Source: Rugalucina vietnamica (Eukaryota; Mollusca; Bivalvia; Lucinida; Lucinidae). Taken from it: a stretch of DNA of 64,000 nucleotides. The notes beneath the pieces are model-generated. The model was given only the letters and a program-made list of their open reading frames with translations, searched no databases and had not been told where the DNA came from. Each line of letters starts with the position of its first letter. The stretch's first letter is position 1. Position numbers and translations under genes: made by a program. Location of the stretch: assembly GCA_964017185.1 (NCBI GenBank), contig OZ024874.1:15061957-15125956 (forward strand), in the 5' to 3' direction. This document shows, one piece after another, positions 2,261 to 39,375 of this stretch.

Positions 2261-2580
2261 TTTTTGTTTTGTTTTCGGCCGCTTTGATGTATCCCCGCTG
2301 ATCCCGGTTTCCACCAGCCAATGGGGTGGAAACAGGCTATAATTTTCTCCCCACGATACCCTTGCTCTGAAATAACAGCTGATCTTTTATATTGCATGGT
2401 TATCAATTTTGTTACTTTAAAACATTGTCTTACGCCATTGAATCTATGTATCATTATATAAAATCTATTTAATAAAGTTACAATCATCTCACTAACACAC
2501 TTTAAATCAGTATACACCCAACAGACTCCATCCCTTGCCTTGTTTTCACTTCAATCAGGACGGTTTGTTGCTAATTCATG

Positions 2581-2786
2581 AGAATCTTTAGGTAAGATCT
2601 GGGCGCTGGGTGGGGATCTTTATATCAGTCCTTTGACACTTAACACTTCGATATTTGCCTTCTTCTAGAAGGAGGCAATGTTTTGATTTTAGAATCTTTA
2701 GGTAAGATCTGGGCGCTGGGTGAGGATCTTTATCTTAACACCTCGATATATGCCTTCTTCTAGAAGGAGGCAATGTCTTGATTTTA
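2581..2786. repeat. Two-copy tandem repeat with internal palindrome
   Basis: Two adjacent copies of a roughly 95-112-bp unit, starting near 2,581 and 2,693. Each contains GGTAAGATCTGGGCGCTGGG, then a GGATCTTTAT stretch, then the palindrome CTTCTTCTAGAAGGAG. The second copy lacks about 17 bp after GGATCTTTAT. The function is unknown. Confidence 0.8.
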
Positions 2787-2847
2787 GTTTTATATATCAC
2801 TAGTCTGCAATATATTTGTAAATCAGTGATACTTTATTAATGTGTTG

Positions 2848-4617
<1,770 letters not shown>

Positions 4618-4619
4618 TA

Positions 4620-5519
4620 TACTGAGCCAAACTTATAACGCAACACGGTTACGGCATGTTTTTCGCATTTTAATGTAATGCAAGACGGTCTACCAGACAT
4701 ATGCTGGTCAGCAATCGCCAGCGAATAAATCGGGTACAAAATTTTGCTTTTCAGAGCATGGGTCACTGAGCACGAATCTGATTGGTCAAAACGGTTATTT
4801 GGGTGGCATGCGCCTCCTGAGAGATTCTGGAAGTCAGTTTTAACGCAAATTGATTCTTTACGGATCGTCCAGTGAAGCTGGACGAGGTAATTGCAAAATG
4901 CCTTCCATTTGTACCCAAAATTTTAAATCAAAGTTTGAATCATTGAAAATTGAACGTTTAATACTGTGTATTCCATTGAACAAAATAGAAAATGGAATTG
5001 GTGACAAATTCTAACGGCGAATGTTTTTACTGAAACCTTTGTGGAGACATGTTCATTCCATCATTCAGCATTGTTAGAAAACACATTAGCATCCAATTGT
5101 TAGGTCAGGACCGTTTGTAACAAATGTTAAAATGCGAGTAAACTTGAATGGTTGGTGTCGAAAATGAGTCCTCACCTCTGCTCAAAATTGAGCAAAATTG
5201 ATCTTTTGACAGTAAAATTATTCATTGGCTTAAGTAGACCAGGGATTATCCTGAAAACCGACATTAATTTCTAGGGTACGAATACACGTCACATGTCGCG
5301 TTCTGGAAAATCACAATGCATTTCATTTTTTACCAAGACCCTACCTCTGAAAAATGATTGATTTCTTGAGACGCATAACACAGAATGTTACAACCAAGAT
5401 GTTGTGAGATGTGTCGATCGTCCGATAATCTAATTCAGTAGAGACAAAGTAAATTTGATAAAGTTCCGGAGTATAACATTAAAAATAAACAGATGTTGCG
5501 TTATAAGTTTGGCTCAGTA
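4620..5519. mobile_element. 900-bp non-autonomous DNA transposon with 26-bp TIRs and TA duplication
   Basis: The two ends are perfect inverted repeats of 26 bp beginning TACTGAGCCAAACTTATAAC. They are flanked by TA at 4,618-4,619 and 5,520-5,521. A TA target duplication with short TIRs is typical of Tc1/mariner-type elements. No transposase ORF lies inside, so it must be non-autonomous. The exact superfamily is inferred only from target site and TIR form. Confidence 0.85.
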
Positions 5520-5521
5520 TA

Positions 5522-7534
5522 CAAGTTAACACATACACGCCCCCTAATATTTTAAAGCACATGGCTGGATTCAACATGTGGAGCGATCAGTCTTGATTAA
5601 AGGAAAAAAATCGGGGCATTTATCCCTCAATGCACTTAGACTATACATGGGAAAGTTGTCAGTATTAAACTTGTGCCATGGATGATCTCTAAGTTTTTTT
5701 TTTGTGTCAGCATCATGACATGAAATTTTGATTACTTTAGGCATTTGCTTTATTAATCCATGATTTACAGGGACTATTAATCTAGTCAAATACTTAAGTG
5801 GTATCATCTTGGTTCACTCTTGATATATAGTATGTCTTGACTCATTTAGACCAACAATATTTCACTGAAGTTCTTCTTACTCTATACATTTCATTGCTGT
5901 GCATAATGTAAGAGACAGCAGGGCGTGTTATAGCTAAACAGGTACATGTATAGGGGTGTATATGCCATAGTTTTAACATTGAAAAATATTTGATCAGTGT
6001 AGGAACATTTTAACAACAGAAGGCATTTAGATTTCATATGTATCCAATTTGATGGTGGCATGCGTGCATTCATTCATTCATTCCAGACTTGCAAATAAAT
6101 TCTGTGTCATTTTATGTTTGCCAAACTCATACAGTAATTGAGGCATCCATGAGAGAACGTGTTTTGCATATATATGTAACAAACTTAAAGTACAGATCAG
6201 CTGGTGGTAGTCGCCAATGGCATGTACATATTTTGCTTCCTCTGTGTTTTAAACCCCGATTTGTGAAGTATTTTGCCATGTTCTTTGGCTACATAACTTG
6301 GTTTTATGGTCTACCTGTTTCGGCAACTAATGACAGATTTTTCTCATGACTTTGCTCAATACTTGTCATTGTTAGCAGTGATATATATAGGCAACTCCCA
6401 AAATAATTTATGAAAATAATGTCTCTTATAAAGCATCAAACTTTTGAGATGAATTTTAGGGTGTCTAAGACCCTTGATGCTGAGCTACATGTTTAAAAAT
6501 CACAACAATGTTGGAACTGAATACAGACATGCAACAAAATGATTTTTATATTTATATTTTCAAATTTTGACCCCTACCTCTGCTTCGCCTGCCATATCTA
6601 TTGTATGAGGGGGAATGCTTCACACATTATAGCATTTATCCGTTCTTAGGACATCATACTACCCTCCTCATTGCAAAGTTGTAGCAGAAATTGCTTTAAA
6701 ACGGAGTTTTGGGCTTTTGAAAACAAGGCATATATTACAGGACATAGTCAATGATCCTCTAAAAGGTTTAGACAATACATTTGTTACGCATTCAATTTAC
6801 AATATGACCTAAGAAGAATATGTTGACTCGTACAGACAAGTTTATGTTGTAGTTTACATAGAATTTTATAATTGACCGTTTTAAAATAATGTTGTTATTT
6901 TGTCTGGGCTAGTTATATGTTTTGTTTGTGTGAAATCAACAAGTTTGTGTAACCACCAGCGCGTTGTACCAATGCTTCAAAAGACGCTCCCGGTGCGTTG
7001 TAATAGAAAATCCTCAATAAAACGTTTGCTTCGGTACCAAGAAAAAAATTGGCGATCGGAAATCGTGTTTCTTGAATGTTTATTCATAAATATATAATAT
7101 ATAACAAAAACTATGCTCAGACATGCATTTTTCCCTCAATTTTGGCACGAAAACATATGCCAACAGTCATGTTGGTAAAACTGTATCGGATTTGGCTTCT
7201 AACCCATGAAATAATTCACATATTGCGTGATAAAATCATAAACTATAATGCTTCCGCCCTTCTCTGCGCCAGGTGACATGGCAAATAACACACACAAAAA
7301 TTTATAAGGGAATGACAATGAAGAGAGGTACAAGTTTTGTTTACCTTTTCCGCCATTTTAATCTTACTCCAGTTCGTAATTTAATCTGCACCAGTGCGTT
7401 GCAACTAGCTCCAGTACTTTTACATTTACCAGTGTGTGCTCTGACAGTTGTCATCTAGCTATTCAGTGTTTATGGTTGTAAATAGGTAAAACACCAAAGC
7501 CCTGCTCACATCCATTCAGCTTTAATACTTATAA
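5522..7534. other. Intergenic sequence upstream of the HSPA12-like gene
   Basis: AT-rich DNA with a few 60-86-codon ORFs that look random. A non-coding first exon and the promoter of the HSPA12-like gene may lie here. No TATA box, heat-shock element array or clear donor site in the matching phase could be identified. Confidence 0.4.
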
Positions 7535-10500
7535 ATGATGTTATTTCAGGCTCACAAGGGTAAATTTCTGGTTGGCGCCATAGATTTTGGTACAACATAT
7601 TCAGGATGGGCATATTCCTTTCTTCACGACTACCAATCAAACCCTACGAATGCTGTTGTTACACACTGGTATTCAGGGACGGATACATTGGCAACCGAGA
7701 AGACCCCAACTTGTGCTCTAATAGCTCCTGATGGCAAGACACTGGTGGGGTTTGGTTACGAAGCTGAAAATAAGTATCAGAATTTTGTCGAAAATGATAC
7801 CCATAAGAAGTACTACTTTTTCAAACGATTCAAAATGGCACTGGATAAACTGGTGAGATATATGTATAGCTTTTTTTCTTCTTTTCTTTGTTTTCATCAG
7901 CTGATTGATGATAAGAATGATTTCAGCAAATTCATGTTAATCCTGTGATGGCCAGGACAAATATTATCGCTTTTGGTTTATATGTCTGACTGTGAAAAAA
8001 GTAACAACATGTGATTACGGTAGGAAACGTATGGAACTCCCATCTGCTACGCTAATTGTAAAATACTTTAATACTAGTTGTTAATTACGTATATCATAAG
8101 TTATGCAGTTTTAAAAGTAAACAAGTTATAATAAGTAACTTCAATACATATAACTAAGAAAACACTTTTTTAAAGGCATGTATTTAATCTAGAAAGTAGA
8201 AACACAGGACACAAGGCTCTATCCATGCTGGTGGGGACAGACGTAGCAGTGCATTTGCATGACAGGGATAATTCTGGAAGGGACTTTGTGCTAAAAGGCC
8301 CGAAATCTTTCGAAAAAGTTCCTCCAGTTGAGCATCTCAACAATTATCTGTATCAGAAGTGGTTGTCCTGACAAAAATATTCCATTTTCTTTCAAGAAGC
8401 CCCATCGTGTTTGTTGGCCAGAATTTAACCCTGCTTGAGTTGGCATTGACTTTAGCTGTATAATTTTTCAGACCATCAACCGAGACTTGCAAATCGAAGA
8501 AGTGATGGGAAAACCTTTGTCCGCTATGACAGTATTTTCCCTTTCTATTGGGTATCTAGCTGACAATATGATGAAATCTGTAAGTAATGGCATCGCAGGT
8601 GATGTAAGGAAATCAGATGTGGACTGGGTGTTGACCGTACCAGCTATATGGTCGGACGCTGCCAAACAATTCATGAGAGAGGCAGCTGAACAGGTACGCT
8701 TCTTTAAACATCTTTGTTAGTCACATTATTGCAACTCCATTATTGTTCAGAAACGCCATCGGTAACGTCTCTTATTGCACTTCAATTGTCCTTAAAAAGC
8801 CTTAAAATGCACTTAAGTATTGAAAAATCGGCTCACAAATCAAATACAAAAGTATGCCCATAAACTATCATGACAATTGATGTACTAGTATTTTACAAGT
8901 ACATGTACATAGGATGTAATATTAAACTTGCTTAACAGAATTGCTAATCTTAGGATGATACTTGTCTCATGCAAACTACTTAGATGACTCCTTAAATATT
9001 TTATGCATATAAAATACATCCCGTGGCCAAAAGTTACAAGGCCATTCCGGTAATTAGGCCCATTCCGGTAAAGGAACGGACCTAGATTTGGGATTGTCCG
9101 TACAGTACGTATGAGATGATGATGTTCTACGGCACCACAGAAAATGTTTAATTTATTAGTTTCAGGTCCTTTGTTAAATCATTAATATCTTATTAATCTA
9201 ACAGGCCGGGTTACACAGAGCCAAACTAACCATTGCCCTTGAGCCTGAAGCAGCCTCCATTTTTGCCCGACATCTGCCAATCAATAAGAAAGAAGGCCTT
9301 GAAATATCAACTATGGAACCAGGAACCCAGTACATTGTTCTTGATGCTGGAGGTATGTCACATTCTAATATGGTCACCAAATACACTATCGTATTAACAT
9401 ATACATTAAAAACATGCTAAAATATACCCTTAGTTATACATAAATAACTTAGTACTTTCTTCACAGAATTGACCAAATTATACCACACATCCCCTGATCA
9501 AAATTAACTAAAATATTATGTTGTCACTTAAAACACAAAACTTACAGGTTAAAGAATTGCTAAAATATGCATGAAACGACACCTTTTACCAGAACTAACC
9601 AAATTGTCACTTATTACATATTGATCGAAATATGTACAGTAGTATGATACATTTGTCATTTTTATTCTGAGGTCCAATTTTGAACAGATTACAACCTTAC
9701 TGAGATTTTTTTTTTCTTTTTCTTTTTTTTTTTTTTTGTATATTACTGATAGGTGGAACGATCGATATAATGATACATGAAATCACCCATGGAGGAGGGC
9801 TGAGAGAGGTCCATGCTGCAAGCGGTGGGGGATGGGGAGGGATCTTAGTAGACAAAGCTTTTCAGGACTTACTTACTGAGCTGGTTGGACCAGAGATGTA
9901 TGACGAGTTCAGAAAGACGCAGGCCGAAGACTGGATGTATCTTTGGAGAACATTTGAAAGTAAAAAACGAACCGTTTTGCCAGATAGTGATGAGACAATA
10001 AATATGAGGTTACCAGTGTCGCTAACTTTAATGTATTCGGAGAAAAATGGACAAAACATTAATGAATATGTCAAGAGATCAAGATATGCAAATGAAATCT
10101 CGATACGCCTTGACAAAATTTTCATCAGCCACAAGATTATGAAAGAACTTTTTGATAAGTCCGTCCAAACCACTATTGCTCATCTTAAATCTGTAATGCA
10201 GGAAACTGATGCCGACAAAATAAAGGCAATACTGATGGTCGGGGGCTTTTCAGAGAGCCATGTTCTACAAGATGCTATCAGAAGAGAGTTTAGCCATTTA
10301 CAAGTCATCATTCCACCAGCACCATCTAGTATTGTGCTACGAGGTTCTGTAATATTTGGACATGACCCGATATTAATTGAACAGCGTGTTCTGAAGAAAA
10401 CGTATGGTACCAGACACACACCTTTATTTGATGAAAGAAAACACCCAGAGGATAAAAAGACGACTCTGAAATATAAAGGGAAAACATATGATGTTGTTGA

Positions 10501-22104: not shown

Positions 22105-23185
22105 TTTAACTTAAATTTCTTCAGAGGTTTAAAAAACACGTCTGATCAGCTGTGAATCGACTCGATCACTGGTGCGGTTGCTTAGACACAAACGTCGCGT
22201 TACTTACGTTACGTTTTTTAAAACATGGCGTTACTGAAGCCGAATGTCAAAATCAATGATTCGTGCGATGTAGGTAATTCGATAGACTGCTGTTCCCCTG
22301 TTCCCTGTCAATATATTCCTACGCTGTTGGTGTCATTTGAAAGTTAAACACGTCACTGTGTTATGCCAACTGAATTAATACACTCATTTGGAAGCTGCAG
22401 AGGTTTAAATTTGCTAGTTTTTGGCATTTTGGATGCACGTACATGATCGAAATGGTGTTAAAAATTTCCTAATTGTTCATAGACAAAGTGCAAACCTTTT
22501 TGCTACTTGTAGAAGAATTCACGGCCCTTATCAGGCAACTAATCTGTAGCTTTGCTTTCAGCCAAATTTTAGTCGCTCAAAAACAAAAGTAGTGTCTGGG
22601 TTGGGTTTTTATAATATAATTGTGTCCATGGCCCGAGATTATAAAAACATCTTCATGCTCAGCTCAGGTGTGACTAAAATCTATCCTGCTCATAAATGTT
22701 AAAATGCCAAAAAATGTTGGCATTTTTACATTTATGACCAAGATAAATTACAGGCTTTGGTGATCTTTACATGAATCATTTTGATGAGCAGTTTGAATTT
22801 CGTACTCAGCTGAGATGAGAATGAAAAAAGTTTTATAACCTTAGTGCCTGTTTCCAAGGTTATAAAACTTTTTTCATGCCCAAATCGACTGAGCATGAAA
22901 TTTATGCTTTATGAGCAGGATAAATTTTAGTCTCAGCTAAGCAGAGTATGAAAAAAAAGAGTTTCATATCTTCACTTCAGGACAAGGTGTCGATTCATGT
23001 GCCAGTTACGAATGAAATTACACCAACATGCAAAAAATGTTAGCATTAAAGAATACACATCAGAAAACCTGATTGAGGACAGATCAAACAAATAAGCTGC
23101 CATATTATGATCACGCGGCTAGTCAGCAACCTTATTTTCGCTAAAAAAAAAAAGTCATACCAGGCCATTATGGAATGTTATTTTT
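22030..23185. repeat. Promoter/exon-1 segment, first tandem copy
   Basis: Contains exon 1 (22,104-22,058), its 5' flank with TTACTTACGTTACGTTTT, one unit of the 50-bp CACGGCCCTTATCAGG repeat near 22,521, and palindrome-rich upstream DNA. The same series recurs as 23,405-24,527 joined to 38,858-39,375. Confidence 0.85.
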
Positions 23186-23404: not shown

Positions 23405-24527
23405 TAAATATTTGTCATTTTGATGCCAAAGTAATAAGATAATGCTTACTCATTTTCTTTATCTTTTTCCAGCTTGAAAATTTCCAAGGTTGTCATTTTA
23501 TCTTAATTTTCTTCAGAGGTTTAAAAAAACACGTCTGATCAGCTGTGAATCGACTCGATCACTGGTGCGGTTGCTTAGACACAAACGACGCGTTACTTAC
23601 GTTACGTTTTTACATGGCGTTACTGGAGCCGAAGGTCAAAATCAATAATGCTGCGATGTAGGTAACTAGATAGACTGTTCCCTGTCAACATATTCCTACG
23701 CTGTTGGTGTCATTTGAAAGTGAAACAAATACGGCAATGAATTAACACCCACATTTGGAAGCTGCAGAGGTTTAAAATGCATTTTTTTTTATTTTATTTT
23801 ATTTTTTTTTTTTTGCATTTTGGGTGTACCGGGTAAGTACATGATCGAAATATTGTGTTAAAATTTTCCTAAATGTTCACAGACTTTCAAAAAAGCAAAG
23901 CTTTTGCTACATTAAGAAGACTTCACGGCCCTTATCAGGCAACTTATATGTAGCTTTACTTTCAGCCAAATTCCACGGCCCTTATCAGGCAACTTATCTG
24001 TAGCTTTACTTTCAGCCAAATTCCACGGCCCTTATCAGGCAACTTATATGTAGCTTTACTTTCAGCCAAATTCCACGGCCCTTATCAGGCAACTTATCTG
24101 TAGCTTTACTTTCAGCCAAATTCCACGGCCCTTATCAGGCAACTTATCTGTAGCTTTACTTTCAGCCAAATTCCACGGCCCTTATCAGGCAACTTATCTG
24201 TAGCTTTACTTTCAGCCAAATTCCACGGCCCTTATCAGGCAACTTATCTGTAGCTTTACTTTCAGCCAAATTCCACGGCCCTTATCAGGCAACTTATCTG
24301 TAGCTTTACTTTCAGCCAAATTCCACGGCCCTTATCAGGCAACTTATCTGTAGCTTTACTTTCAGCCAAATTTTATTTTTTCGGAAACAAAAGTAGTGTC
24401 CAGGTTGGGTTTTTACAATTAATTGTGTTCATGGCCCGAGGATATAAAACTTTTTTTCATGCTCAGCTCAGGTGTGACTAAAATTTATTCTGTCCATAAA
24501 TGTTGTCATTTTAACATTTATCAGCAA
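23405..24527. repeat. Promoter/exon-1 segment, second copy (gene-proximal half)
   Basis: Repeats 22,030-22,735 in order. It includes a 47-nt exon 1 with identical sequence at 23,496-23,450 and a conserved GTAAGC donor, then nine copies of the 50-bp unit. It ends exactly at the left terminus of the 14.3-kb element. The other half resumes at 38,858. Confidence 0.85.
23921..24370. repeat. 50-bp minisatellite, nine copies
   Basis: Nine consecutive 50-bp units starting at 23,921, 23,971 and so on to 24,321. Each has CACGGCCCTTATCAGGCAAC and TAGCTTTACTTTCAGCC. Units 1 and 3 read TTATATG; the rest read TTATCTG. The paralogous segment near 22,521 has only one unit. Confidence 0.97.
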
Positions 24528-24688
24528 CACCCTCTGTACCCGTGATTCAATCAATTACCTAACGTCGGAGAATGATACAACTAAACGCGGAAGATGGAGT
24601 CAGGTGAGTTGACGATAATTTTAATTTTACAGGCATTTATGCGGGAGAGTTTGGGTCAAGAGTTGGCAGAAAAATAAAGTGTACATAC

Positions 24689-24831
24689 CTCTGTTTGTTT
24701 GCCATCAACAGTATTCTAAACAACATCTCCTTTCCACAGAAACAATAGTTTTCTCGGCTGAAAATTCCACCATCGTCACGAAAATTGATTGCATTTGCTA
24801 AAATCTCCAATCTTTCGTCACCTTTTGACAT
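24689..24831 (-). CDS. Putative outward-facing exon in left arm of the 14.3-kb element
   Basis: Starts with ATG and is open for 143 nt (47 codons plus two bases), ending at an AGAG/GTATGT donor. It begins MSKGDERLEILANAINFRDD and continues with RENYCFCG and MLFRILLMANKQR. The right arm has the matching exon of equal length with five or so substitutions and the same donor. Transcription would run out of the element towards the BAR-SH3 gene. The protein family was not recognised, and no acceptor partner was found inside the element. Confidence 0.45.
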
Positions 24832-25148
24832 TTTTAACGTTTCAATATAGACCAAAAACATTCTTTGTTACATACAAACAGAAAACAATAATGAAGTCAG
24901 GATGGTTTGTTCACAATATGGTGTTGAACACACACAGGGTAGATCGATTAGGATACAACTTACCTATATGAGTCAATTACCTCGATACAACTAACGTATA
25001 AGACTTTTGGATAGAAAATGATGCTCCTTACGTCAGAGAATAGAGCAAAAATGATACTACTTACGTCAAAAGACTATTATACATTGAAAAGCCCACGGAC
25101 TAGAGAGCACGAGTGTGTCAGGCACGGCAAGTTTGCATGTGTTCCTTA

Positions 25149-28100
25149 TAGTCAATGTCGAATGGGAATCTCGTGCGATTTTCTTGACGATTTATGACGA
25201 CCTATATAAAACTTATCTATGGGGTACATGTATAACATTAAACCTGTTCGTCGCACTTACAGCCGCGTCAGAGTCGATTTATGACGTCATCAATATGGCG
25301 GCTATCTGACTATATATGAATTATTCGTATATCCATCAAAATCAATTGAAAACATCGCATTATTGCCTTTTTTGCGAAGAAAATGTATAAAATGCATCTG
25401 ATTATACACACTATAGACGAATTAAGTCGATGGGTTAAAGGATATTGCTTTATCCACTCATCCGTTCGTTCGTGCATACGTTGGACATACGTTTTTCTTC
25501 AAAAAACGCGCACAACTTAAAGACCCTGTGAGCTAATTTGATGCACCCCCAGGACAATTTTCATGGTTGCCAAATTATTCCCTGGGACCCCAGAAATACA
25601 AAGAATATTTGTCCTCAAAGATAAACTCAATTGCACTATGAAAAAATGTATGGTTTCCATGGCAACCGTAGCGAGATTCTTGAACATGGGGTGTACATAC
25701 AAAATTGATCATATCTCCATTGTTACTTATCCTAGACTACTGTACTTGGTCTCATTTTAAAGCTTAGACATAGCCCCTGTTTATGGTAAGTAATGCAAAT
25801 ATCTTATTTGCATATTTATTAATTTAATGAAAATATGAAAAATGGCAAAAAGTCGTTACAAATCCAAAAATTAACTAATTTCAGGCCCAAACTGCCATTG
25901 TGAAACTTTGTTATTGAACCAGTAATATCATATGACAAATTTATCGATGAACTGGCCCTATATGAAGATTATATCATTTGCATATTCATAATGTTAAAAA
26001 AACTATAACCATTGCAAGTTATTGCATATGTTATATGGCCTAACTTGCATCTCTGGGACAAATTCTCAAGGCTGTTAGTGTTGTAAGAGGTGCCACCTTA
26101 ATGCCATCAACTATTGTCCTTAAACATTAAAATGGAGAAGAATTGTGGAACAATAGGGGGTATATGTAAAATCGCTTGTTCCAGAGCTGTTTATCAACCC
26201 AGGATGCTGAAAGAGGTGTTCAATGAATGCTATGGCAATGTACTATGGTCCTGAAGTAAGTTATAAGAATAATCTGTTTTCCAATATTTGAATTTTAATG
26301 AAAACTAAAGAAATTTTAGAGAAAAGACAATGAAAAAATGGGTTAACCTGCAAAATGACTTGCATTATGGCAATCAAAAGTCTAATAGTGCTGAAAATGG
26401 CATCAACTGGTGTCTAGGGCAATATTATTACATCCTGAACTACAATTTACGAGTCATTTGGTGTTAGTTTTAAGAATATCAACAAAACCTTTTGAATTTA
26501 GTGGGTTGAGAATACGGAAAAATTAAGGGGGTATACGTAGAAGAGCTATAATTGGCATCAAACGATTGCTAGTACAAAGTTCTGTAACGATATAATCGGC
26601 TATTGTTGTTGTATGGATATTACTGAGATCTTCATAAATAAGAGAAAAACGGGTACACCAAAGAAAACCGCTCATACCTCAGCTGACAATTGCAATATCA
26701 TTAGAATGCTGAAAATGGTTCAATTAGAATGATGGGAGAATGCACTAATGCCATGCAGTACGATAGCTTAACCACGTGTTATTCAATTTTCTGAAAGCTA
26801 CATAAAGTTTCGAAAAATATGAAAATTGAAGGCTGTGCTTCAACAAAATTTATTAAATCTTGCTTGCAAGAAAGCATGATTTATACATCTGAGCACATGA
26901 CAATAAAACATTGTCCTAGCAATAAATTGGGGCCATTTTGAGTTCTCCATGGCTATTGGCTGCTGAGATATAAGCAATGTTGTTGGTGTACCCCATCATT
27001 TTTCATTGATGTTGCTATTTTTATTAAGATCTCATTTATATCAATAGATCTACAAGAAAAATAGCAGGAAACCGCGGTATGTTAACTGCTATTCAAGGAT
27101 CTCAGTTCTACTCTTTTTCTTGCTTTATATATCAGATTATATGGTTACAGAACATTGTCCTAGCAACTATTTATTACCAATTATAGCTTCATAGGTCTTT
27201 CAGTAACCCGGACACGTGCGTTTTTCTACGCATACCCCTTAATTGTTCTGTATATTTTCTCTAAATTCAAAACGTTTTGTTAATATTCTTAAAACTAAAA
27301 CACAAATGACCCATAATTTATAGTACAGGATGGTATAACATTTGATGTCATTTTCCAGCACCATATTACTTTTGATTGCCGAGATACGAGTCATTTTGTA
27401 GGCTAAATTGTTTGGTTCATGTATCACTATTATACCAATTATAGTACTCTAGAGCATTCTTTGGTAGGATATAAGTACGTATTTTTGGAAGAAAATCCTA
27501 TTCTTTAGAATCGCATGAGGAGTGGTGTGGAAACTATGTAATTTTACATCATGCAAATCTTTTTTTTTTCATTGCTGATGACAATATTTAATGGCATTAA
27601 GGTTGTCCCCCTGAAAACACTGACAGTCTTGAGAATTTATCCCATGGATGCAAAATAGATTGGATCTTATAACCTATCCAATACTTTGCAATGGGTATAA
27701 TTTTTCTCTTGTTTTTCCTCACTTTTTGGCAATTTAATAATATGCATGAATATACAAATAAGATAATTTTCATTTAGGACCAGGTCATCAATAAATTCGT
27801 CATATGATATTTACTGGTTAAATAACCAAGTGTCACAACGACAGCTTGGGCCTGAAATTACTTCATTTATGGATTTTTTAAGATTTTTCTGCCATTTTGC
27901 ATGTTTTCATAAAAAATAATGAATATGCTAATTAGAAAATTTGCATTACTTACCACAAAAAGAAGGGGCTATGTCTAAGCTTTACAATGAGACCATGTTC
28001 AATAATCTAAGATAAGTAGCAGTGGAGTTATGATCAAATTTGTATGTATACCCCCATCCTCAAGAATCACGTTAGCGGTTGCCATGGCAACCGTGCATTT

Positions 28101-28425
28101 TTTCATGGTGCATTTGAGTTTATCTTTGTGCTAAAATAGCTTTTATAAATACATTTGGTAAAATCCACCCATTTAAAAGCAGCGAGAAGCTGGAAATCAA
28201 TTTTTATCTGACAAGCATAGTATGAAAATGGTTGTTTAAAATGCATATTATGAATGCGCTGGTCGCCATTTTGATGACGTCATATTTCAGCCCAGACGCG
28301 GGTCTCAGGGCGACGATCTGGTTTAAATTGTTGCATATGCCCCAAAGTTTGATTTAAGGTAGGTCGTCACAAATCGTCATAAAATTCCTACGGGACGATT
28401 TTTTGTGCCCATTCGACATTGACTA
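25149..28425. mobile_element. 3.28-kb near-palindromic element with TTA duplication
   Basis: Ends TAGTCAATGTCGAATGGG and its inverse. Inverted similarity continues through most of the element, with arms of about 1.6 kb and little loop. Arms contain diverged subrepeats of about 200 bp, for example around 26,090, 26,330 and 26,540. TTA flanks it (25,146-25,148 and 28,426-28,428). The right arm of the host element near 38,220 lacks it and reads GTTGATATAAGGAACAC. A 3-bp TTA duplication fits PIF/Harbinger-type insertion; no transposase is present. Confidence 0.78.
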
Positions 28426-28667
28426 TTATATCAACATGTTCCCAAGGGCTCTTGTTTGTGCCAACCGTTAAAATTGCACTTTTGAACGTAAATGTTGCTG
28501 GCGCGTGCGGTTACGATTTTCGGTGTGATGGGGGACGACTCGTGAGGGCATATTTGAGACGATGACGAGGGGCGATATGAATAATTACTTGGTAAAAACT
28601 ACCTATAGCCTAACGGAGACCAATTAAACAAGACAGGCAAAAAAGAAATAGTCCACGACGTCTTACT

Positions 28668-28735
28668 CTGTAGCTCAGTAGGTAGCATGTATGGAATAAA
28701 ACCAAAAGGTCCTGGGTTGGAGTCCGGCTAGGACA
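28668..28735 (+). repeat. tRNA-like sequence in left arm
   Basis: Has an A-box-like CTGTAGCTCAGTAGGTAGC and a B-box-like GGTCCTGGGTTGGAGTCC. The acceptor stem and anticodon arm do not fold well. A matching copy lies inverted in the right arm near 36,922-36,988. It is most likely a tRNA-derived repeat, not a working tRNA. Confidence 0.5.
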
Positions 28736-29074
28736 AAAATTCTTTTTCTTTCTATTCTTAATTGCTTCCTTTTTTTCGCAGCTTAGAAAATGAAAAAGAA
28801 AAGAAAAGAAAAAAAAAATGCAAAACTCACAAAATGCACTACTGCATTTAATACTAAAATCGTTAATGTGTGGATTAAAGTGTGTAGTGAGAAGGCAGTC
28901 CGCACGTATAGGTTTTTCACTAAGTCTTGTTGTCTTTTCACCGATTTAAGCCGGTAGCTTGATCGTAATCGGCAGAAGTGCGGACCTGCGATCGATCCTC
29001 ACGTCAACTTTTATTTTCTGAAGGCTGGTACAGATAATGCGGCTAGGATAAGTTGACCGCCTCTAATGGCTTAG

Positions 29075-29300
29075 CGGCCCCCGTGGCCGAGCGGTTGAGA
29101 GCGCTGTTTCTTAATCACTCGTTCATCTTACCGCTGTGTCTTGTGTGTGTTCGAGCCCCACACTGGCCACATATGATACAAGCCAAGTTCAACTTGCGGG
29201 AGTGCCAGGTGGTTTTTCTTAGGGTGCTCACGTTTTCACCCCACCTACTGATTGGTGAGCTGAAATAATCTTGAAAGGGACGTAAAACTGAACTAAAATG
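29075..29300 (+). mobile_element. Full-length tRNA-derived SINE
   Basis: The tRNA-like head has A box TGGCCGAGCGGTT and B box GTTCGAGCCCC. The body follows with ACAAGCCAAGTTC, the CAGGTGGTTTTTC block, CACCTACTGATTGG, and the conserved end CTTGAAAGGGACGTAAAACT. The equivalent place in the right arm (about 36,540) has no SINE, so it inserted after the arms formed. It resembles the V-SINE type known from molluscs. Confidence 0.85.
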
Positions 29301-29744
29301 CGCAAGACAATAAATCAAATAGTATAGTGTACATGTTCAGATACATGTATATCTGTGTTTATTAGATGTAAAACTACAGTTTCACGTGCTGTCTCGTGAG
29401 CGAACATAATTCATTCTGTTTATATTTCAAACAGATTATCAGCTTGATGTCGAAGTTTCGCTCATTCGACAGTCATCTGCATGCCATACGAAGTGCGATG
29501 GAGGCAACATCCTACATGTAGCTACATTTCGCCAAGCCACACAACTAATTTTGTTTATTGTAGACCTTCAACAGTAATTCAGCCATATCCAGTGTGCTGG
29601 TTACGATGTAGTAAATTAATTTGGCAAGACATAAGTTTTCTTTTTGATCCATATTTATTCTGTGTGATATTGTATGCGTGTTGTTTACCTGGTTGAATTC
29701 AAATAAAAATGATTAAAATATAACTAACACAATATTATTTTTAT

Positions 29745-31170
29745 GAGTTGCTAAAGTGTTTCCATAAAGCACTCCATGTCGTAGTGGTTCAGTCAGTCGC
29801 CTCGTAAAACGGTCGAGACCAGGGTCCAGTATGTAAATAGTTGTTATTTGCACGCAAGACCCCGAATATTCCTCGTTATATGGTTTACATAAGCATGCGT
29901 GCATGATGGAATATGAATGCATTTTTTTCTTATAGGCGCGAGTAACATCGGAGAAGTTTTGCTATCTGTTAAAATTCAATCAGGGCCCAGAATTACACTA
30001 CGCCCACCTTAGTGAGGATGTGAAATTTTATTGTATCGATTCCAGGTCATTCTATTGTTACTTGATTACAGATAAGAGTCTGATTGTGCTCATTTCAGAT
30101 CATAATTTCGTTTTTATACAATTTTCGCCCCGTTCAAGATTATTTTAGTTCATATGACACGGATAAATCAGTAACAAGGTGTGTGTGGGGGGAGGGGAGA
30201 ACCCTGAGAAAACGACTTGGCACACCCACAAGCAGAATTTGGTTTGTGTCACCTGTGATTGTAAGACTGATCAACTGGGCAGCAACCTACGACGAAGTGT
30301 TCATTGTCGTGGTGATGGTTGTTGCCAAAGCGATATTGCTTTTTTCAATTACTCCATTTTATCACATGTTGTGTTATGTTGCATCAATCTTTGCTGTAAG
30401 GACTTTTGTTGTATCGCAGGCATTTACGATGGTGCTTATACTGATAGACAATTCCTGAATATACATATTCATGCACAGTATATCACGTACACATTTTACG
30501 TGCTCAATTTACCGGCTTTTAATATGTAAACAAACGAAACGACGTCCGTGAACCTAATATTGTGCTGTGTTTGGCTGTTGAATTTTTGTCCCACGGCCCC
30601 TCGGAAAAAAAAAATATCAAGCAGGATCAATTATCAAACCACATTGCTGCTTGACGAGCCGAAAACAGTTAAGTGTTAACGGCATGTGTTCGTCCTTTTA
30701 AACCAGGGACCGCGGGTTTGATCCCGGGATCCTTAAGTCTGTCGGATGATACTATAAACTGATGTCTTGTTTCCATATGACCTTTGCTGTTGGATTAACA
30801 TTAAGCCTCAAATCAACAAACCAATTAAATTTATTATTTATGTAAATTCTGATTGAGTAAGAAGCTTATGCGCATTTATGCTCGCCCGATTCCGGACGCA
30901 AAAAATGCCCATATGAGTAAGGTTACGAATGATCAAGGTGTTGTACATGTAGCTCTGTTGTCAGCATGTGTAATACATGTGCACTAAAATGGTGCCGTGT
31001 ATCTTGACGCTAGCATAACAAAACAAGCAATATACAGTGTTTTTAAAGTTGTAAAAAATGAAAATTTTCAGTTCAACATTTTTATCTTTTTATTTTGCTC
31101 AAAACATAGATTGTTGGTACACGCTAAAACTGCCTCGCAGAGGCAGTTCTAACGAGTACTCACAATCTGT
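29745..31170. other. Inner part of the 14.3-kb element, no gene recognised
   Basis: AT-rich DNA. Contains a reversed match between 29,755-29,800 and 34,170-34,215 (CAGTCAGTCGCCTC core), which extends the arms inward. Also contains a SINE fragment and a GGGTTTGATCCCGGGATCC box near 30,712. ORFs of 116-124 codons at 30.1-30.5 kb overlap the SINE fragment and look non-coding. Confidence 0.4.
30128..30255 (-). mobile_element. SINE fragment
   Basis: A minus-strand body of the same SINE: TCAAGATTATTTTAGTTCAT, then GGGAGAACCCTGAGAAAACG, then GCACACCCACAAGCAGAATT. The head is absent. Confidence 0.7.
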
Positions 31171-31174
31171 GTTT

Positions 31175-31962
31175 TAGATGCATGGGCATCCTAAGTTGAC
31201 CTTGCCGTAAAATAGGTCAATATCATCCCCGGGTCATGATTTAGGCCATGTATAAACTTTGTAGATGCTTAATGCCAAGTTTCAAAATCATAGGCCTACT
31301 GGTTCTGAAGAACATTTTAAAGGTTTTTGCAGTATATAGCCATGGCGGCCATTTATACAATCTTTCGTTCCCTTTCCATAAAGTGTGGCTTTGATCGGCC
31401 ATGCGGTTGCAGAGATGTTTGAATATTTTGGTCATATGCATGTATATAGCCCCCGGGCAGGAGCAGACACACCCCTGGGGACTAAATGTTTTCATGGACA
31501 TAAATCTTCAGTACCTTTGCATGCTCATCGGGAGTTTCCACCCATTTAATTACATTTAACTTATTTTCCCCATTTAAATGCATGGGCGACCTAAGTTGAC
31601 CTTGCCATAAAATAGGTCAAGGTCATCCCAGCATTATGATGTATACCAACTTTGTAGAACTCTATTGCCTGATGCTTCAAACTTAGTTTCAAAATCATAG
31701 GACTTCTGCTTCTGGGAAGAAATTGTTTTAAAGGTTTTTGCTATTTATAGCTATGGCAGCCACCTTAGTCATGTGGCCTGGGTCATTTATGCAAACTTTC
31801 GTTCCCCCTTCCTAAGAATGCTCCACAAGCAGTTTAACTTTGGTTTGCCATTTGGTTTCAGAGGAGAATATCATGGAAATTGTTGACGGACGACGTCGGA
31901 CGGACGACGGGGGCATGGTCATCCTATAAGCTCGCTTTTTGAGCCGAAGGGCTCATGTGAGC
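31175..31962 (-). mobile_element. Helitron-like element, truncated copy
   Basis: The 5' hairpin lies near 31,941-31,955. About 1.7 internal units follow on the minus strand, with the AAGATGGC-type, AGGTCAA and GCATGGGCGACC blocks. The 3' hairpin/CTRR end is missing. Confidence 0.68.
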
Positions 31963-33362
31963 TTAAAATAGGTATACCCATGCATACCAAAGTTTTGCTG
32001 TATAAAAGTGTGGTTCATGGGGTATTCACGGACACGTTATTCTGATATGGATAACCGACCATGCTCGAGATGACTTGAAATATGTCAAAACGTTGTAAGG
32101 CGTAGAATAAAAAAACTGCACATAAAATTAAAGATCAACTTATGTTTCAAATCGTAAATCATGCCATGTATACATGTATAAAGTTTTCTGTGCGTTCACG
32201 AAAAACACGTGAAAATGTAGCTTAGCAGAACCAATGTACGTATATACATAAGCCAGTATGTAAAATGTCACATGGCGATAACAAACAGTTGATATTGGTT
32301 TTTCCCACCAACAGTTATGGTCATATGAAGCCGGGACCTCGGTTTATCGAACGAGCGACGCCAAGTTATACACACGAGTGTCTAAAATAATCGAATTCTG
32401 CATTGGAAGCTGTTAGAATGGAGGCATTTTATTCGCGCCAAGCATTTGTAAATCCGACTCGCATTGAACCAGTAACGCATCATTAATGGCAAACATGATA
32501 AGTGATATATATATGATGCGATTTTAGAAAATATTTCGTGTCAAAGGTCAATTCTGGTTCCTTGTTCCATCAGAATTAGACAGTTTAACGGAAAGACAAC
32601 AATTTTCATTTGTAGGCGTTTCGTTCTCGCGCTCAACCTGCGAAACGAGTCAAAAGTTCTTATTAAAATCATTGGAAAAGGTCCCTCAGGACCTTTTCCA
32701 CAGTGTTTACTTTGAATATGAAGAAAATTGTACCCATGATCGACTGCTCTCTCTCAATTACGCGTTTTGTCACATAAAGCGCTAAATAAAAAACTAGTGA
32801 ACCCGTCTATGTTGACTAGACAGTTCACCGCAAACAATTTAATTTATCCATTGTTGACACACCCTGTCAAAAAGCGTTAAATATCTAGCAAGCAGTCTCG
32901 GTCGTGGCGACTTCTTATCATAGCGCATCTAAGTTAAGATCGTAGACACCCTGATGAGGGGTACATAAACTATAGGAACTCTAGATGGCTGACTTTTAGT
33001 TCATCACATCGGACCCATGGGTCTCTCTCCGGTAGTGTGGCTGCAAGTCAAAATTCAGAACTCTGTCACAAATTGACTGCACTGCAAAATGGTTTTCTAC
33101 ACTGTGACATATCGACATATTTGATTGTAATCGTGTTCTCTTTAGAATTAGCTTTGATTCTGTAACATCAGAAATTTTAGTCAATGCCTTGAGTGACAGA
33201 TACACACACTGGTCAAGCGTTCATTACATGAAACGATATTTATACGAAACTGAAACGTATGGGAATCGAAATTAATGACAAACCAGAGAATCAACAACAC
33301 TGAAATCTGGAGCAAAAGGAAGCTCTTATATCAAACTGCTGCTGACCTTTTCATTGGTTTCT
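31963..33362. other. Inner part of the 14.3-kb element, nothing recognised
   Basis: Mixed-composition DNA without supported ORFs. A perfect hairpin GGAAAAGGTCC-CTCA-GGACCTTTTCC lies near 32,676-32,701. Confidence 0.4.
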
Positions 33363-34109
33363 TTTTAAGGGGATGCCAATTGTCAAAAACTAATACTTGT
33401 ATAAATTTTACCTGTATAAAGAAAAATGACAATTTTTCTAAGGAGACTGGGAATTCTTGACACATTCTTGTATGAGTCATTCAAACATCGAATACATATT
33501 CTTTTATGCCCCAAACCTCAGCTCTAGAGGGCTCAGCAGCACGCTTATCAGCATTGTTCAAGTCACTTCCTGGTTTGATTCCATTGTCATCCGTCTGGCA
33601 TGCCGGATAAATTTTACTAAAAGCTTTCACCGTAAACATGATCTCCAATGTCTTGACTACAATCTGTGAAAGTATTTTGAACAAAAAGTCAATATTTTGG
33701 GAGAAATCATACTATTTACTGTATCTTCTGTATAAGGTTTTCAGCATATATGATAAAAACCATGTTTTCCCCGAGAAGAAATCATCTCCGAGTGGACAAA
33801 CTTTCACAGATTGTAGTCTGGCTTTTGGAGATCATGTTTATGGTGGTAGCTTTTAGTAAAACTTATCCAGCATGCCAGACAGATGACAACGGAATCAAAC
33901 CAGGAAGTAACTTGACCAATGCTGATAAGCGTGCTGCTGAGCCCTCTAGAGCTGAGTTTTTGGGCATAAAATAATCTGTATTCGATGTTTGAATGACTCA
34001 TACAAGAATGTTTCAAGAATATCCAGTCTCCTTGGAAAAATTGTCATTTTTCTTTATACAGGTAAAATTATACAAGTATTAGATTTTAACAATTGGCATC
34101 CCCTTAAAG
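33363..34109. mobile_element. ~0.75-kb palindrome with coding-like arms
   Basis: Arms 33,363-33,675 and 33,795-34,109 are inverted copies separated by about 120 bp. Both arms keep an acceptor (TTTCACAG) followed by a frame with LEIMF, YPACQTDDNGIKPGS and NADKRAAEPSRAE. The left-arm version (minus) continues to GIKEYVFDV-stop; the right-arm version (plus) stops after GIK. The fragment looks like a captured last exon. Its protein family was not recognised. Confidence 0.7.
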
Positions 34110-34435
34110 AAGCCAACTTGTTTTGTACCTGTCTTATATCAACTACGTATTTATTCTCGCCATGTGATTTTAAGAGGCGACTGACTGAGCCACTGCGAGA
34201 CAAAGTCCTCTACGGAACGTGTTTGCGTGAGTGTGTGTTTGTGAGTTAGAGTGTGTATGCGCGCTTAAAATTCAGAATATTGTTGTCCTGTTTTAGGGTT
34301 AAGCAAGGTTCGCACGTTTGATCAGCTGGCTAACCTGCACTCCGATACACTTCGTGACCTCGCTCCTTTTCTGTGTATGGAGAGGTCTAACAGAATACCG
34401 ATGGAAATATTCCGTCTAGCAACACGTAATGAAAA

Positions 34436-36044
34436 CCAGAGGACCAATGGTCCTGTAAACGCTCCCCGGGGGTCCGGACCCCCCCCCCCCGGAATCTGAA
34501 AAGTTTACCTAAAAAAGGTAATTTTGGGATTTTTTGGGGGGTTGGACCCCCCCCCCCCTCGTCTGCGACAATATTTTACCATTTTGGTTGGACCCCCTCT
34601 CGTAAAAATGTCTGGATCCCCAAATCAAGGTCATCCAAGGGTCATCATTTTATCAAATTATGATGGGCTGGAGTCATCGATGCTACATACCGATTTTCGT
34701 GAAAATCGGCCTGCCGGCTCTGGTGAAGAAGATTTTCGAGTGGTTTTAGCCATATATGGGCGTGGCGGCCATCTTGGTCATGTTACCCAGATTTCACAAA
34801 CAAACTTTCGTTCCCCCTACCCATAGATGCTCCACATAAAATTTCACTTTGATTGGCCAAGCGGTTTCAGAGGTGAAGATTTTTTTTATATTCAGTTTAA
34901 CGTCTCTTTCAAGATAATTTCAGCTCATGTGAAACGGGCCAATCAGTAGGTGGGGCGAAAACGGCAGAACCCCGAGAAAAACCACCTGGCACACCCGCAA
35001 GCAGAACTTGGCTTGTCTCACATGTGGCCAGTGCGGGGCGCGACCCTACACCAGAGACAGCGGTGAGATGATCGAGTGATTAAGAAACAGCGCTCTCAAC
35101 CGCTCGACCACGGGGGCCGCCATGAAGATGTTTTAAAAGTGTGTATGAACAACAGACTGGTCAAGGTCAAGAGATTACATACTTACATCTACTCCATTAG
35201 TTGTCTGCATCTGCTTTTTTTTCAGGTCTCAGGCTGCAATCGTTTTCGAAAAATCCATATTTTTCACTTTTTCCCATGTAACAGCCTGTTTCCAAAATTG
35301 AGCTTGCCGTAAAACAGGTCAAGGTCATCCCAGGGCCATCATTTTATCAAACTATAATGGGCTGGAGTCACTGATGGCGGCCATCTTTGTCATGTGACTC
35401 GGATTTCATGATCAAACTTTCGTTCCCCCTACCCATGGATGCTCCACATAAAATTTCAACTTGATTGGCCAAGCGGTTTCAGAGATGAAGATGTATGAAA
35501 AGTGTGTATGGAAAACAGACTGGCCAAGGTCAAGAGATGACCTTGGCCTAATTTAATCACATACTTTTATCTACTCTATTAGTTGTCTGCATCTACCTTT
35601 TTTCAGGTCTCTGGCTGCAATCGTTTTTAAAAAAATCAATAGTTTTCACTTTTTTACATGTAAAAGCCTATGTTTCCAAAATTGACCTTGCCGTAAAATA
35701 GGCCAAGGTCATCCCAGGGTCATCATTTTGCCAAACTTTGATGGGCTGGAATCACTGATGGTAAATACCAAGTTTCGTGGGAATCGGCCCGCCGGTTCTG
35801 GAGAAGAAGATTTTTAAGTGTTTTTTACCATATATGGGCGTGGCGGCCATATTGGTCATGTGACATGGATTTCGCGATCAAACTTGAAATGCCGCTACAC
35901 AAGGAGGCTCCACATAAAATTTCAACTTGATTGGCCAAGTGGTTTCAGAGAAGAAGATTGTGGACGACGACGAAGACGGACGACGGACGACGGATCATGG
36001 CCATCCTATAAGCTCTCCTTGTGAGCCTTCGGCTCAGGTGAGCT
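34436..36044 (-). mobile_element. Helitron-like element with SINE insertion
   Basis: The minus-strand 5' hairpin (TGAGCCGAAGGCTCA) is at 36,036-36,022. The 3' end is AGGACCATTGGTCCT then CTGG then TTTT at 34,454-34,432. Internal units repeat the GCGGTTTCAGAG and ATGGGCTGGAGTCA blocks near 34,660, 35,345 and 35,740. A SINE interrupts one unit at 34,881-35,122, and poly-C tracts lie near the 3' end. Confidence 0.75.
34881..35122 (-). mobile_element. Full-length SINE with TGAAGAT target duplication
   Basis: Minus-strand SINE with tRNA-like head near 35,122-35,040 and body down to the T-rich tail. TGAAGAT occurs on both sides (34,874-34,880 and 35,123-35,129). The neighbouring tandem unit near 35,482 has the uninterrupted sequence GATGAAGATGTATG. 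Confidence 0.85.
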
Positions 36045-36921
36045 AAAAAAAGACTAGATGTTTCTTAGTTTTATAATCATTTATTTACTTGAAAATAATA
36101 TTGTGTTAGTTTGAAGATTAATTATATTTATTTGAAGTCAACCAGACAAACAGCACGCATACTACAAGAGAATAAATGAGGATCATACAGAAAGCCTGTG
36201 GCTTGCAAAAATCATCTAAAATTCGTAATTATCGCACTCGATATGGCTGAAATACTGTTGGAGGCCTACAAAACCTCAAATTATTAGTATGGCTATATGC
36301 ATAATGTAGTTAGGATATCGCCCTTATGACATGCAAATGGGTGTTGTATGGGATCAAAACGAAACATCAACCAAATAAACCCCACCAAGCTTTCGAGTAT
36401 CTGTTTGAAATACATGTATAAACATGCCAAATGAATTATATTCGCTCACGAGACAGCACGTGAAACTGTAGTTTTTACACCTTATATATATACATATGTC
36501 TGTACAGGTACACTATACTATTTGAGTTAGTGCCTTACGTCCGCGGAAAACATTTAAAGTCATTCAGGGTGGCTAACTTATCCTAGCCACATTATTCCTG
36601 TACAAGCCTTCAGAATATGAACATGTTTATGTCCCCAAGAAAGAAATATTAACATGAGGATCGCTCGAAGATCAGCTCTTCTACCAAAACAAATACGATC
36701 GAGCTGTCGATTTCAACAGGTTAAAAGTTAACAAGAGAGAAACATTAATGTGAGGTGCCGTCTCGCACTTCAATTCCTTTACAATTTAAGCATTTATGCA
36801 CAAGGGCATTTCCTGATTCTTGCATTCGCCAATAAATATAATCAGCTGATAATACATTTTTTTTTATTTCCTTAGCTTTATTGTCACAGGGGAGACAAAT
36901 AAAGAAAAGAAAAAAAGCGGT

Positions 36922-36988
36922 CCGACCAAGACTCGAACCCAGAACCTTTCGTTTTGAATCCTAGCTTGCTACCTACTGAGCTACAGAG
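36922..36988 (-). repeat. tRNA-like sequence in right arm
   Basis: Inverted counterpart of 28,668-28,735, with CTGTAGCTCAGTAGGTAGC and a good B box GGGTTCGAGTC. It is better preserved than the left-arm version but still lacks a convincing acceptor stem. Confidence 0.5.
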
Positions 36989-37170
36989 ATAGACGTCCTA
37001 CACTATAACATTTATTGCATGTCTTATTTAATTCGTCTCCGTTGGGCTGTTGGTAGTTTTGACTGTGTAATTCTTCATATTGCCCCTCGTCTTAGTCTCA
37101 CATATGCCCTCACGAGTCGTCCCCCATCACACAGAAAGTCGTAACCGCACGCACCAGCAGCATTTACGTT

Positions 37171-38007
37171 CAAAAGTGAAAAATGTCTAATACGGAATGC
37201 TACTTATTTATTTATTTATTTTAGTCACAACGCATCTAAGGTTGACCAACAGTTCACACATTTCCACCAACAAACACATAAATTTTATCAGCAGAATGTA
37301 TCTCAATCTCAAAAAAAAAAGAAAGTTAGAAAAAAAAAGAAAAAAAAAGGGGAACTGTCTCTGCATTGTTCGTTCGATTGATGTTCTTCACGTAGCCCCC
37401 CCCCCCCCCCACCACACACACACACACACAACCCATCCCCCATACACCTTGTATATGGATTTGGATATAATCCTCAGATTAATTTTTGACACTTTTTTCG
37501 CAATTTGAACTTAGTCGTTTTTTTCGGACATTTTGACAATGAAAGTGAATGGACAGGGGTACCTTGTGTGCGCAACTCCTCCTACAGTTTTATTCCGATT
37601 CTTTTGAAACTTTACAGATGTCTTGACCTTGCTTTGAAGATGTGCATGTGGTTTGGATATAATCCTCAGATTAATTTTTGATACTTTTTTTGCAATTTGA
37701 ACTTAGTCGTTTTTCGGGTATTTTGACAATGAAAATGAATGGACAGTGTGTGCCTTATGTGCACAACTCCTCCTATTGTTTTATTCCGATTGTTTTGAAA
37801 ATGTACATATGTCCTGACCATGCTTTGAAACTGTGCATGTGGTTTGAATATAATACATAGATATATTTTTGGCACTTCTTTTTGCAATTTGATTGTTTTT
37901 CGGACATTTACACTAAGAAAGTGCATATGGTTTGGATATACATCATTCTCAGATTATATTTGTGTAACTAAACAATTAAGGCGGGGGACATAAATTCTCT
38001 GAATTTG

Positions 38008-38050
<43 letters not shown>

Positions 38051-38200
38051 AGATTGAGAGATACATTCTGCTGATAAAATTTATGTGTTTGTTGGTGGAA
38101 ATGTGTGAACTGTGGGTCAACCTTAGATGCGTTGTGACTAAAATAAATAAATAAATAAATAAGTAGCATTCCGTATTACCAACCGTTAAAATTACACAAA
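37171..38200. mobile_element. ~1-kb TIR element in right arm with ~190-bp tandem core
   Basis: Inverted ends of about 130 bp run from 37,188 (TACGGAATGCTACTTATTTA) and back from 38,180. The core has 2.5 units of about 190 bp starting near 37,458, 37,651 and 37,841 (GGTTTGGATATAATCC). A long T run lies at 38,010-38,050. The left arm of the large element lacks it near 28,465. No coding ORF was found. Confidence 0.65.
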
Positions 38201-38553
38201 CAAGAGCCCTTGGAACATGTTGATATAAGGAACACATGCAAACTTGCCCTGCCTGACACATTCGTGCTCGCTAGTCCGTGGGCTTTTCAATGTACAATAG
38301 TCTTTTGACGTAAGTAGTATCATTTTTTGATCTATTCTCTGACGTAAGGAGCATCATTTTCTATCCAAAAGTCTTATACGTAAGTTGTATCGAGGTAATT
38401 GGCTCATATGGGTAAGTTGTATCCTAATCGATCTACCCTGTGTGTGTTCAACACCATATTGTGAACAAACCAGCCTGACTTCATTATTGTTTTCTGTTTG
38501 TATGTAACGAAGAATGTTTTTGGTCTATATAGAAACGTTACCCGGGGTGAAAA

Positions 38554-38696
38554 ATGTCAATAGGTGACGAAAGATTGGAGAAATTAGCAAATGCAATCAT
38601 TTTTCGTGACGATGGTGGAATTTTCCGCCGAGAAAACTATTGTTTCTGTGGCAATGAGATGTTGTTTAGAATACTGTTGATGGCAAACAAACAGAG
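38554..38696 (+). CDS. Putative outward-facing exon in right arm of the 14.3-kb element
   Basis: Mirror counterpart of the exon at 24,689-24,831. It encodes MSIGDERLEKLANAIIFRDD, then RENYCFCG and MLFRILLMANKQR, and ends at AGAG/GTATGT. The frame stays open to 38,748 if unspliced. It points towards the right end of the element. The function is not known. Confidence 0.45.
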
Positions 38697-38857
38697 GTAT
38701 GTGCACTCTATTTCTCTGCCAACTCTTGACCCAAACTCCCCCGCATAAATGCCTGTAAAATTAAAATAATCGTCAACTCACCTGACTCCATCTTCCGCGT
38801 TTAGTTGTATCAGTCTCCGACGTTAGGTAATTGATTGTATCACGGGTACAGAGGGTG

Positions 38858-39375
38858 AGCAAGATAAATTACAGGCGTTGGGAATCTTAACCTAAAATTT
38901 CAATTCATTGGGTTATTTTGTCATTTATGAGCAGTTTGAATTTCGTGCTCAGCTGACTTGAGCATGAAAAAAATATTTATAACCTCGGTACCAGGCACCA
39001 AGGTTATAAAACTTTCCTCATGAAATTTCGACTGTCCATAAATGTTGAAATAGTCAAAATAAGTGGAAAATTCAGGTTCAATACTCTACATCTAGTAATT
39101 TATCCTGCTCATGAATGAGCAGGATAAATTTTAGTCTCAGCTGAGTTGAGCATGAAAAAAGTTTTATGACCTCGGTCCCAGGTGTCGATTCATATACCTT
39201 CTATTTGTGTTACGAATGTAATTACTCCAACATGCAAATTGTTAGCATGAAAGAATACACATCAGAAAACCTCAAACAAATAAGCTGCCATATTATGATT
39301 ATGCGGTTAGCCAACAACGCTACAAATAAGCTAAAAAAAAAATTCGCCCAAGCAGACCATTATTGAATTTTATTT
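38858..39375. repeat. Promoter/exon-1 segment, second copy (distal half)
   Basis: Directly repeats 22,735-23,185 in the same orientation: AGATAAATTACAGGC, the AGCAGTTTGAATTTCGT block, GGTGTCGATTCAT and AATAAGCTGCCATATTATGA. It continues the half that stops at 24,527, so the 14.3-kb element lies between them. Confidence 0.85.

Follow-up and report, generated by a model that had tools for sequence, protein, structure and literature searches.

The locus and its insertion signature

The window analysed here is a 64,000-nucleotide stretch of contig OZ024874.1 of the bivalve Rugalucina vietnamica, and the feature under study is a 14.3-kb inverted-repeat element that occupies its positions 24,528 to 38,857. 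The terminal inverted repeats (TIRs) of this element read CACCCTCTGTACCCGTGAT inward from 24,528 and ...ATCACGGGTACAGAGGGTG ending at 38,857, and the five bases AGCAA stand immediately outside each end. When the two flanks are joined, they align to a paralogous stretch near 22,730, where a single ACCAA corresponds to the two copies of AGCAA at the element. The presence of AGCAA on both sides, together with an uninterrupted paralogous stretch, indicates an insertion that produced a 5-bp target-site duplication (TSD); the paralogous locus provides an empty site for the window copy only. The features that define the insertion are as follows:

24523..24527, no strand: left TSD, AGCAA, read from the window sequence
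38858..38862, no strand: right TSD, AGCAA, read from the window sequence
about 22720..22760, no strand: paralogous empty site in the duplicated flank, with a single ACCAA, from the alignment across the joined flanks

A first-pass annotation of the window had proposed a real insertion with inverted ends and an AGCAA duplication, lying within a duplicated segment that it took for a promoter, and the termini as read and the paralogous stretch bear out both parts of that proposal. The flank of the insertion is a duplicated segment that carries a 50-bp tandem array (23,924-24,372). This array, nine units at 99%, adjoins the element, and the segment is duplicated from about 22.0-22.7 kb.

A family with shared termini

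An exact 19-mer of the terminus has 244 matches across the genome of 1.09 Gb, 117 of them forward and 127 reverse, and a reversed control gave none. Extended ends could be divided by subfamily into 74 of A-type and 82 of B-type. Of the 244 termini, we examined 79 in context, and 37 copies were scored with both ends, namely the window copy and 36 fetched from elsewhere in the genome; other two-ended copies, on whose existence the first-pass annotation had made its reading depend, are thus plentiful. An exact 5-bp TSD flanked 27 of the 37, while five copies had a TSD of 4 bp, one of 3 bp, one of 6 bp and three none. When flanks were mispaired as a control, only 2 of 1,332 ordered pairs matched, both of them combining copy L036a with copy L036b. 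The flanks of these two copies are identical, suggesting one insertion that was duplicated in tandem, so that 26 of 36 independent insertions carry a 5-bp TSD. Another 22 end pairs (10 + 9 + 3) were paired by nearness and orientation only, and were listed rather than read whole.

The duplicated targets are AT-rich: the GC content of the 27 exact TSDs is 24%, as against 37% for the window, and a C precedes the TSD in 14 of the 27 and a G follows it in 16 (both comparisons count L036 twice). Arms diverge from their consensus by 1.9% in subfamily A (16 arms from eight copies) and by 1.5% in subfamily B (30 arms from 15 copies), indicating that the family moved recently.

With inverted termini common to many loci, a characteristic TSD and an empty site, the element is a TIR DNA transposon. 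An assembly artefact or a simple inversion is excluded at the level of the family by the 244 termini, the 26 independent 5-bp duplications and the paralogous empty site, and we give it practically no weight. We conclude that the feature very probably belongs, as a single copy, to a non-autonomous family of TIR DNA transposons that is young, numerous in the genome and mobilised in trans.

Anatomy of the element and its subfamilies

The A and B subfamilies diverge near arm base 60. Lengths were measured for 33 copies: 18 fall between 1.85 and 2.97 kb, four are shorter than 1.2 kb and 11 exceed 3 kb. Within the middle group, the first uninterrupted arm block spans 0.57-0.93 kb in 16 of the 18 copies, the exceptions being L024 (0.45 kb) and L032 (0.27 kb). 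Four A-type copies (L012, L020, L033 and L039) are 2.50-2.55 kb long and their arms 0.83-0.85 kb; among the 10 A-type end pairs that were not read whole, seven span 2.40-2.52 kb, as judged from coordinates only. In B-type copies, of which L011 is an example, the interior varies and the arms measure about 0.58 kb. Their arm consensus contains direct repeats resembling GATACAACTNACGT, mainly at about 435-550; four were counted, as against at most three in 20 shuffles.

Nested insertions account for the length of the window copy

The first-pass annotation had taken 14.3 kb as the size of the element and, once nested insertions were removed, 1.7-1.8 kb as the length of its arms. Neither figure survives comparison with L012: the two copies align collinearly over three segments of the window copy, namely 24,528 to about 25,150, 28,426-28,461 and 37,188-38,857. 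The window copy is an element of about 2.5 kb that has been enlarged to 14.3 kb by two nested insertions, of 3.3 kb and 8.7 kb, both of them inverted-repeat elements; its own arms measure about 0.83 kb, and the remainder of the supposed arms are those of the second nested insertion. From left to right, the parts are:

24528..25148, forward strand: outer part of the left arm (L012 1 to about 622), 97.9% identical to L012, its end read from the sequence
25149..28425, no strand: nested insertion 1, an element with inverted repeats and ends TAGTCAATGTCGAATGGG; the duplication is TTA, or TTATA with a right end longer by TA
28426..28461, forward strand: continuation of the left arm (L012 620-655), 100% identical across 36 bases
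28462..37187, no strand: nested insertion 2, which belongs to a different family; its inner terminus is CACTTTTGAACGTAAATG, its outer ends are GACATTTTTCAC... and its target is TA-centred
33364..34108, no strand: short inverted-repeat element inside nested insertion 2 (repeats I2 and I20), a further level of nesting
37188..37345, forward strand: inner part of the left arm (about L012 671-828), from inverted repeat I6 and the L012 comparison
37460..37892, forward strand: central 191-bp tandem repeat; internal repeats occur likewise in L012, L020 and L039
38012..38857, forward strand: right arm, inner boundary approximate, from inverted repeats I1, I3, I6 and I7 and the L012 comparison

That the whole 14.3 kb might be a single large transposon with arms of 1.7-1.8 kb was suggested by inverted similarity that extends further in, linking about 28.47-29.42 kb with 36.43-37.18 kb. 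This inner similarity, however, begins where homology to L012 ends, and the family to which it belongs has 1,106 inner termini in the genome; moreover, the nearest copies are about 2.5 kb long. The collinear map rules the single transposon out, and we attach next to no probability to it. Nested insertions are thus able to mimic a giant element in a scan.

The family of nested insertion 2 was identified through exact genome-wide matches to CACTTTTGAACGTAAATG (546 + 560 = 1,106, with none in the control). The ends of 10 other copies, picked among 100 places listed, were read: ends of the GACATTTTTCAC type lie on both sides by a TA-centred site in nine of the 10 (in L061 one base off), and the right-hand end of this type is absent from the remaining copy, L067/L068. 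In the window, the first bases of nested insertion 2 at its left end (28462-28479) are host-element sequence in inverted orientation. We also observed that many pairs among the matches listed for this family lie about 6-9 kb apart, and that the target reads TAN-TA-NTA in most of the 10 copies.

Separately, about 100 bp at about 85% identity is common to nested insertion 2 (window 34320-34418) and the B-type interior (L011 887-983). The match includes identical blocks of about 20-30 bases, and is possibly a captured exon or a short repeat.

Proposed mode of movement and search for a transposase

In the mechanism that we propose, a DDE-type transposase encoded elsewhere in the genome would bind the arms at two sites, the terminal block and the cluster of GATACAACTNACGT-like repeats at about 435-550. 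It would then excise the element and insert it with a 5-bp stagger, probably into targets that lean towards C[NNNNN]G with an AT-rich centre.

An autonomous relative with a transposase, for which the first-pass annotation had proposed to look, could be recognised among none of the copies read, which account for 79 of the 244 ends. In these copies we inspected frames of at least 110 amino acids (in part from a list of at most 60), at least 100 or at least 80, and none resembled a DDE transposase belonging to the element. A Pfam search of 28 frames or peptides, taken out of a larger number from the copies, the nested elements and the interior, likewise returned no DDE transposase of the element. 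Short stretches resembling open reading frames in the arm and in the interior of B-type copies had no significant Pfam match (best E 0.073); one of them looks to the eye like a MADF domain, a likeness that we do not claim.

Long copies, with 4-22 kb between their ends, were examined for genes. Those found in L035, L054 and L058 were rejected as the autonomous partner, as they belong to nested retroelements or to a Polinton-like element. In L035 (3014-6777), a reverse transcriptase (RVT_1 in Pfam) adjoins a second frame without a Pfam match, whose motifs we take to be those of a DIRS/Ngaro-like tyrosine recombinase. L054 (about 713-9225) encodes an integrase with a chromodomain (rve and chromo domains in Pfam), as well as frames that are presumably an ATPase and a polymerase, judging by their motifs; the polymerase-like frame has no Pfam match. 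This Polinton/Maverick-like group is just about 8.5 kb long, is delimited by inverted ends TGATGAATATAAATTGGGGG, lies within the arm of a CACCC copy and is bordered by a repeat of about 6 bp (CACACA). In L058, a copy on contig C4 of which only the middle portion was fetched, there is a long interspersed nuclear element with RVT_1 and an endonuclease. In some long copies, L016, L017, L052 and L053 among them, there is interior sequence with no recognisable genes, and this we take as nested or decayed material.

A pattern for divergent termini (CACCCTCTGTACC, seven free bases and a non-family base) matched 11 places, as against three in the reversed control. Three of the 11 are the full 19-mer and one is short of it by a single base; of these four, three have a known end as partner. 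Two places on contig C8, considered as a possible relative, proved to be ordinary duplicated sequence without resemblance to the element.

Several of these results weigh against a non-autonomous family moved in trans by a DDE transposase. (i) The length of the TSD varies among the 37 copies, as set out above. (ii) Some long copies contain interior sequence that is unexplained. (iii) Only frames of about 100 amino acids or larger were considered, with part of them scanned, so an intron-rich transposase gene would escape. (iv) The contexts read cover 79 of the 244 termini, which leaves room for an autonomous copy among the other 165. No autonomous partner was found in the copies read, and mobilisation in trans by a DDE transposase with a 5-bp stagger is deduced from the ends and the duplications.

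Candidate superfamilies and comparison with known systems

The best verdict that the ends and TSDs allow is a cut-and-paste element with no firm superfamily assignment, in agreement with the first-pass annotation, which had found no common superfamily to fit. The literature searched offered no published match for the family, CACCCTCTGTACC and CACCCTCTGTACCCG being absent from the PMC papers covered; Repbase and Dfam lay outside its scope. Once identified, the transposase would either represent a new group with 5-bp duplications or allow many young insertions to be assigned to a superfamily already known.

The alternative that fares best, though we hold it doubtful, is another branch of the CACTA/Mirage/Chapaev group (CMC, or CMCT with Transib) or an undescribed superfamily with 5-bp duplications. 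The element shares CAC...GTG ends with CACTA/EnSpm and Chapaev elements, and its TSD, mainly 5 bp and at times 4 bp, would suit such a placement; duplications in Chapaev, however, are 4 bp. EnSpm families are stated to have 5'-CAC..GTG-3' ends and motifs in common with Transib, and to duplicate 3 bp, whereas 3 bp was the longest match in only one of the 37 copies. Evidence from proteins for a CMC/CMCT branch is nil.

Somewhat less probable is a non-autonomous element of the hAT5 type. The ends of hAT elements are usually CAG-like and their TIRs short, unlike the CACCC ends and the 0.6-0.8-kb arms seen here. The likeness lies in the TSD, since hAT5 is described (PMC12730594) as a group with 5-bp TSDs.

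An unlikely candidate, in our estimate, is a transposase of the Transib or RAG-like (RAGL) kind, of which the family would be a non-autonomous relative. The first-pass annotation had put this forward as a weak hypothesis; the CAC...GTG ends and the 5-bp TSD still agree with it, but it has gained no support from target composition, TIR consensus or linkage to RAG1-like genes. The genome does encode RAG1-like frames. A search with the RAG1 family matched three places, one of them an open frame of 782 amino acids with no internal stop and with a RING finger, which matched PF12940 (E 5.1e-79 in the genome search, 1.6e-81 in Pfam) and for which RAG1L (6b40) was the best solved structure. Convergent with it is a RAG2L-like frame of 501 amino acids with kelch and PHD matches:

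contig C9:34.094-34.099 Mb: RAG1-like frame (L045 1538-3886), reverse strand, and kelch/PHD frame (L044 7893-9398), forward strand, convergent

The other two matches lie 6 kb apart (L048 and L049, contig C11:21.950-21.962 Mb), one with a stop; kelch/PHD-like frames, recognised by eye, lie on the opposite strand, and the two matches look like parts of one decayed locus. Such RAGL pairs are known in protostomes (PMC7204232). A recently active family shares its genome with an open RAG1-like/RAG2-like pair.

CACCCTCTG is absent from both RAG1-like regions (29.0 and 38.5 kb read), and because matching ends are missing we reject these loci as the source. The published RAGL terminus, allowing two mismatches or fewer, gave many scattered matches but no convincing pair of flanking ends. 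Agreement between the terminus CACCCTCTGTACCCG and the protostome RAGL TIR consensus CACTWMCAAACKTYKBB (PMC7204232) stops at CAC. According to PMC8289069, targets of RAG, ProtoRAG and Transib are GC-biased, whereas the 27 TSDs here, at 24% GC, are poorer in GC than the window. A 70-residue Transib motif found no match in the genome at E 0.001, a negative that is weak because the search lacked a positive control. Among the DDE/D elements that a survey of molluscs identified, moreover, one was a Transib element. As some of the features tested do not agree, we have not assigned the element to Transib/RAGL. Further still from our expectation is that the family represents a lineage of transposases not yet described, a new group characterised by CAC ends, by long arms of bipartite structure and by 5-bp targets with an AT centre; such a lineage might be an offshoot of the assemblage from which RAG arose, in a genome that also retains the open RAG1-like/RAG2-like pair.

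Compared with known systems as a whole, the element resembles Transib/RAGL in the CAC at its ends and in its 5-bp TSD, and differs from them in that the copies read have no linked transposase, in its sequence beyond CAC and in its AT-rich TSDs. The arms are a further difference: those of the element extend over 0.6-0.83 kb, as against identical TIRs of 13 bp in TransibSU-1_PM and TIR similarity of about 13-15 bp between species for protostome RAGL. In their long inverted arms, in-arm repeats and internally variable non-autonomous copies, the elements are reminiscent of Galileo and other foldback-like elements. Galileo, in contrast, produces 7-bp duplications and is placed within the P superfamily.

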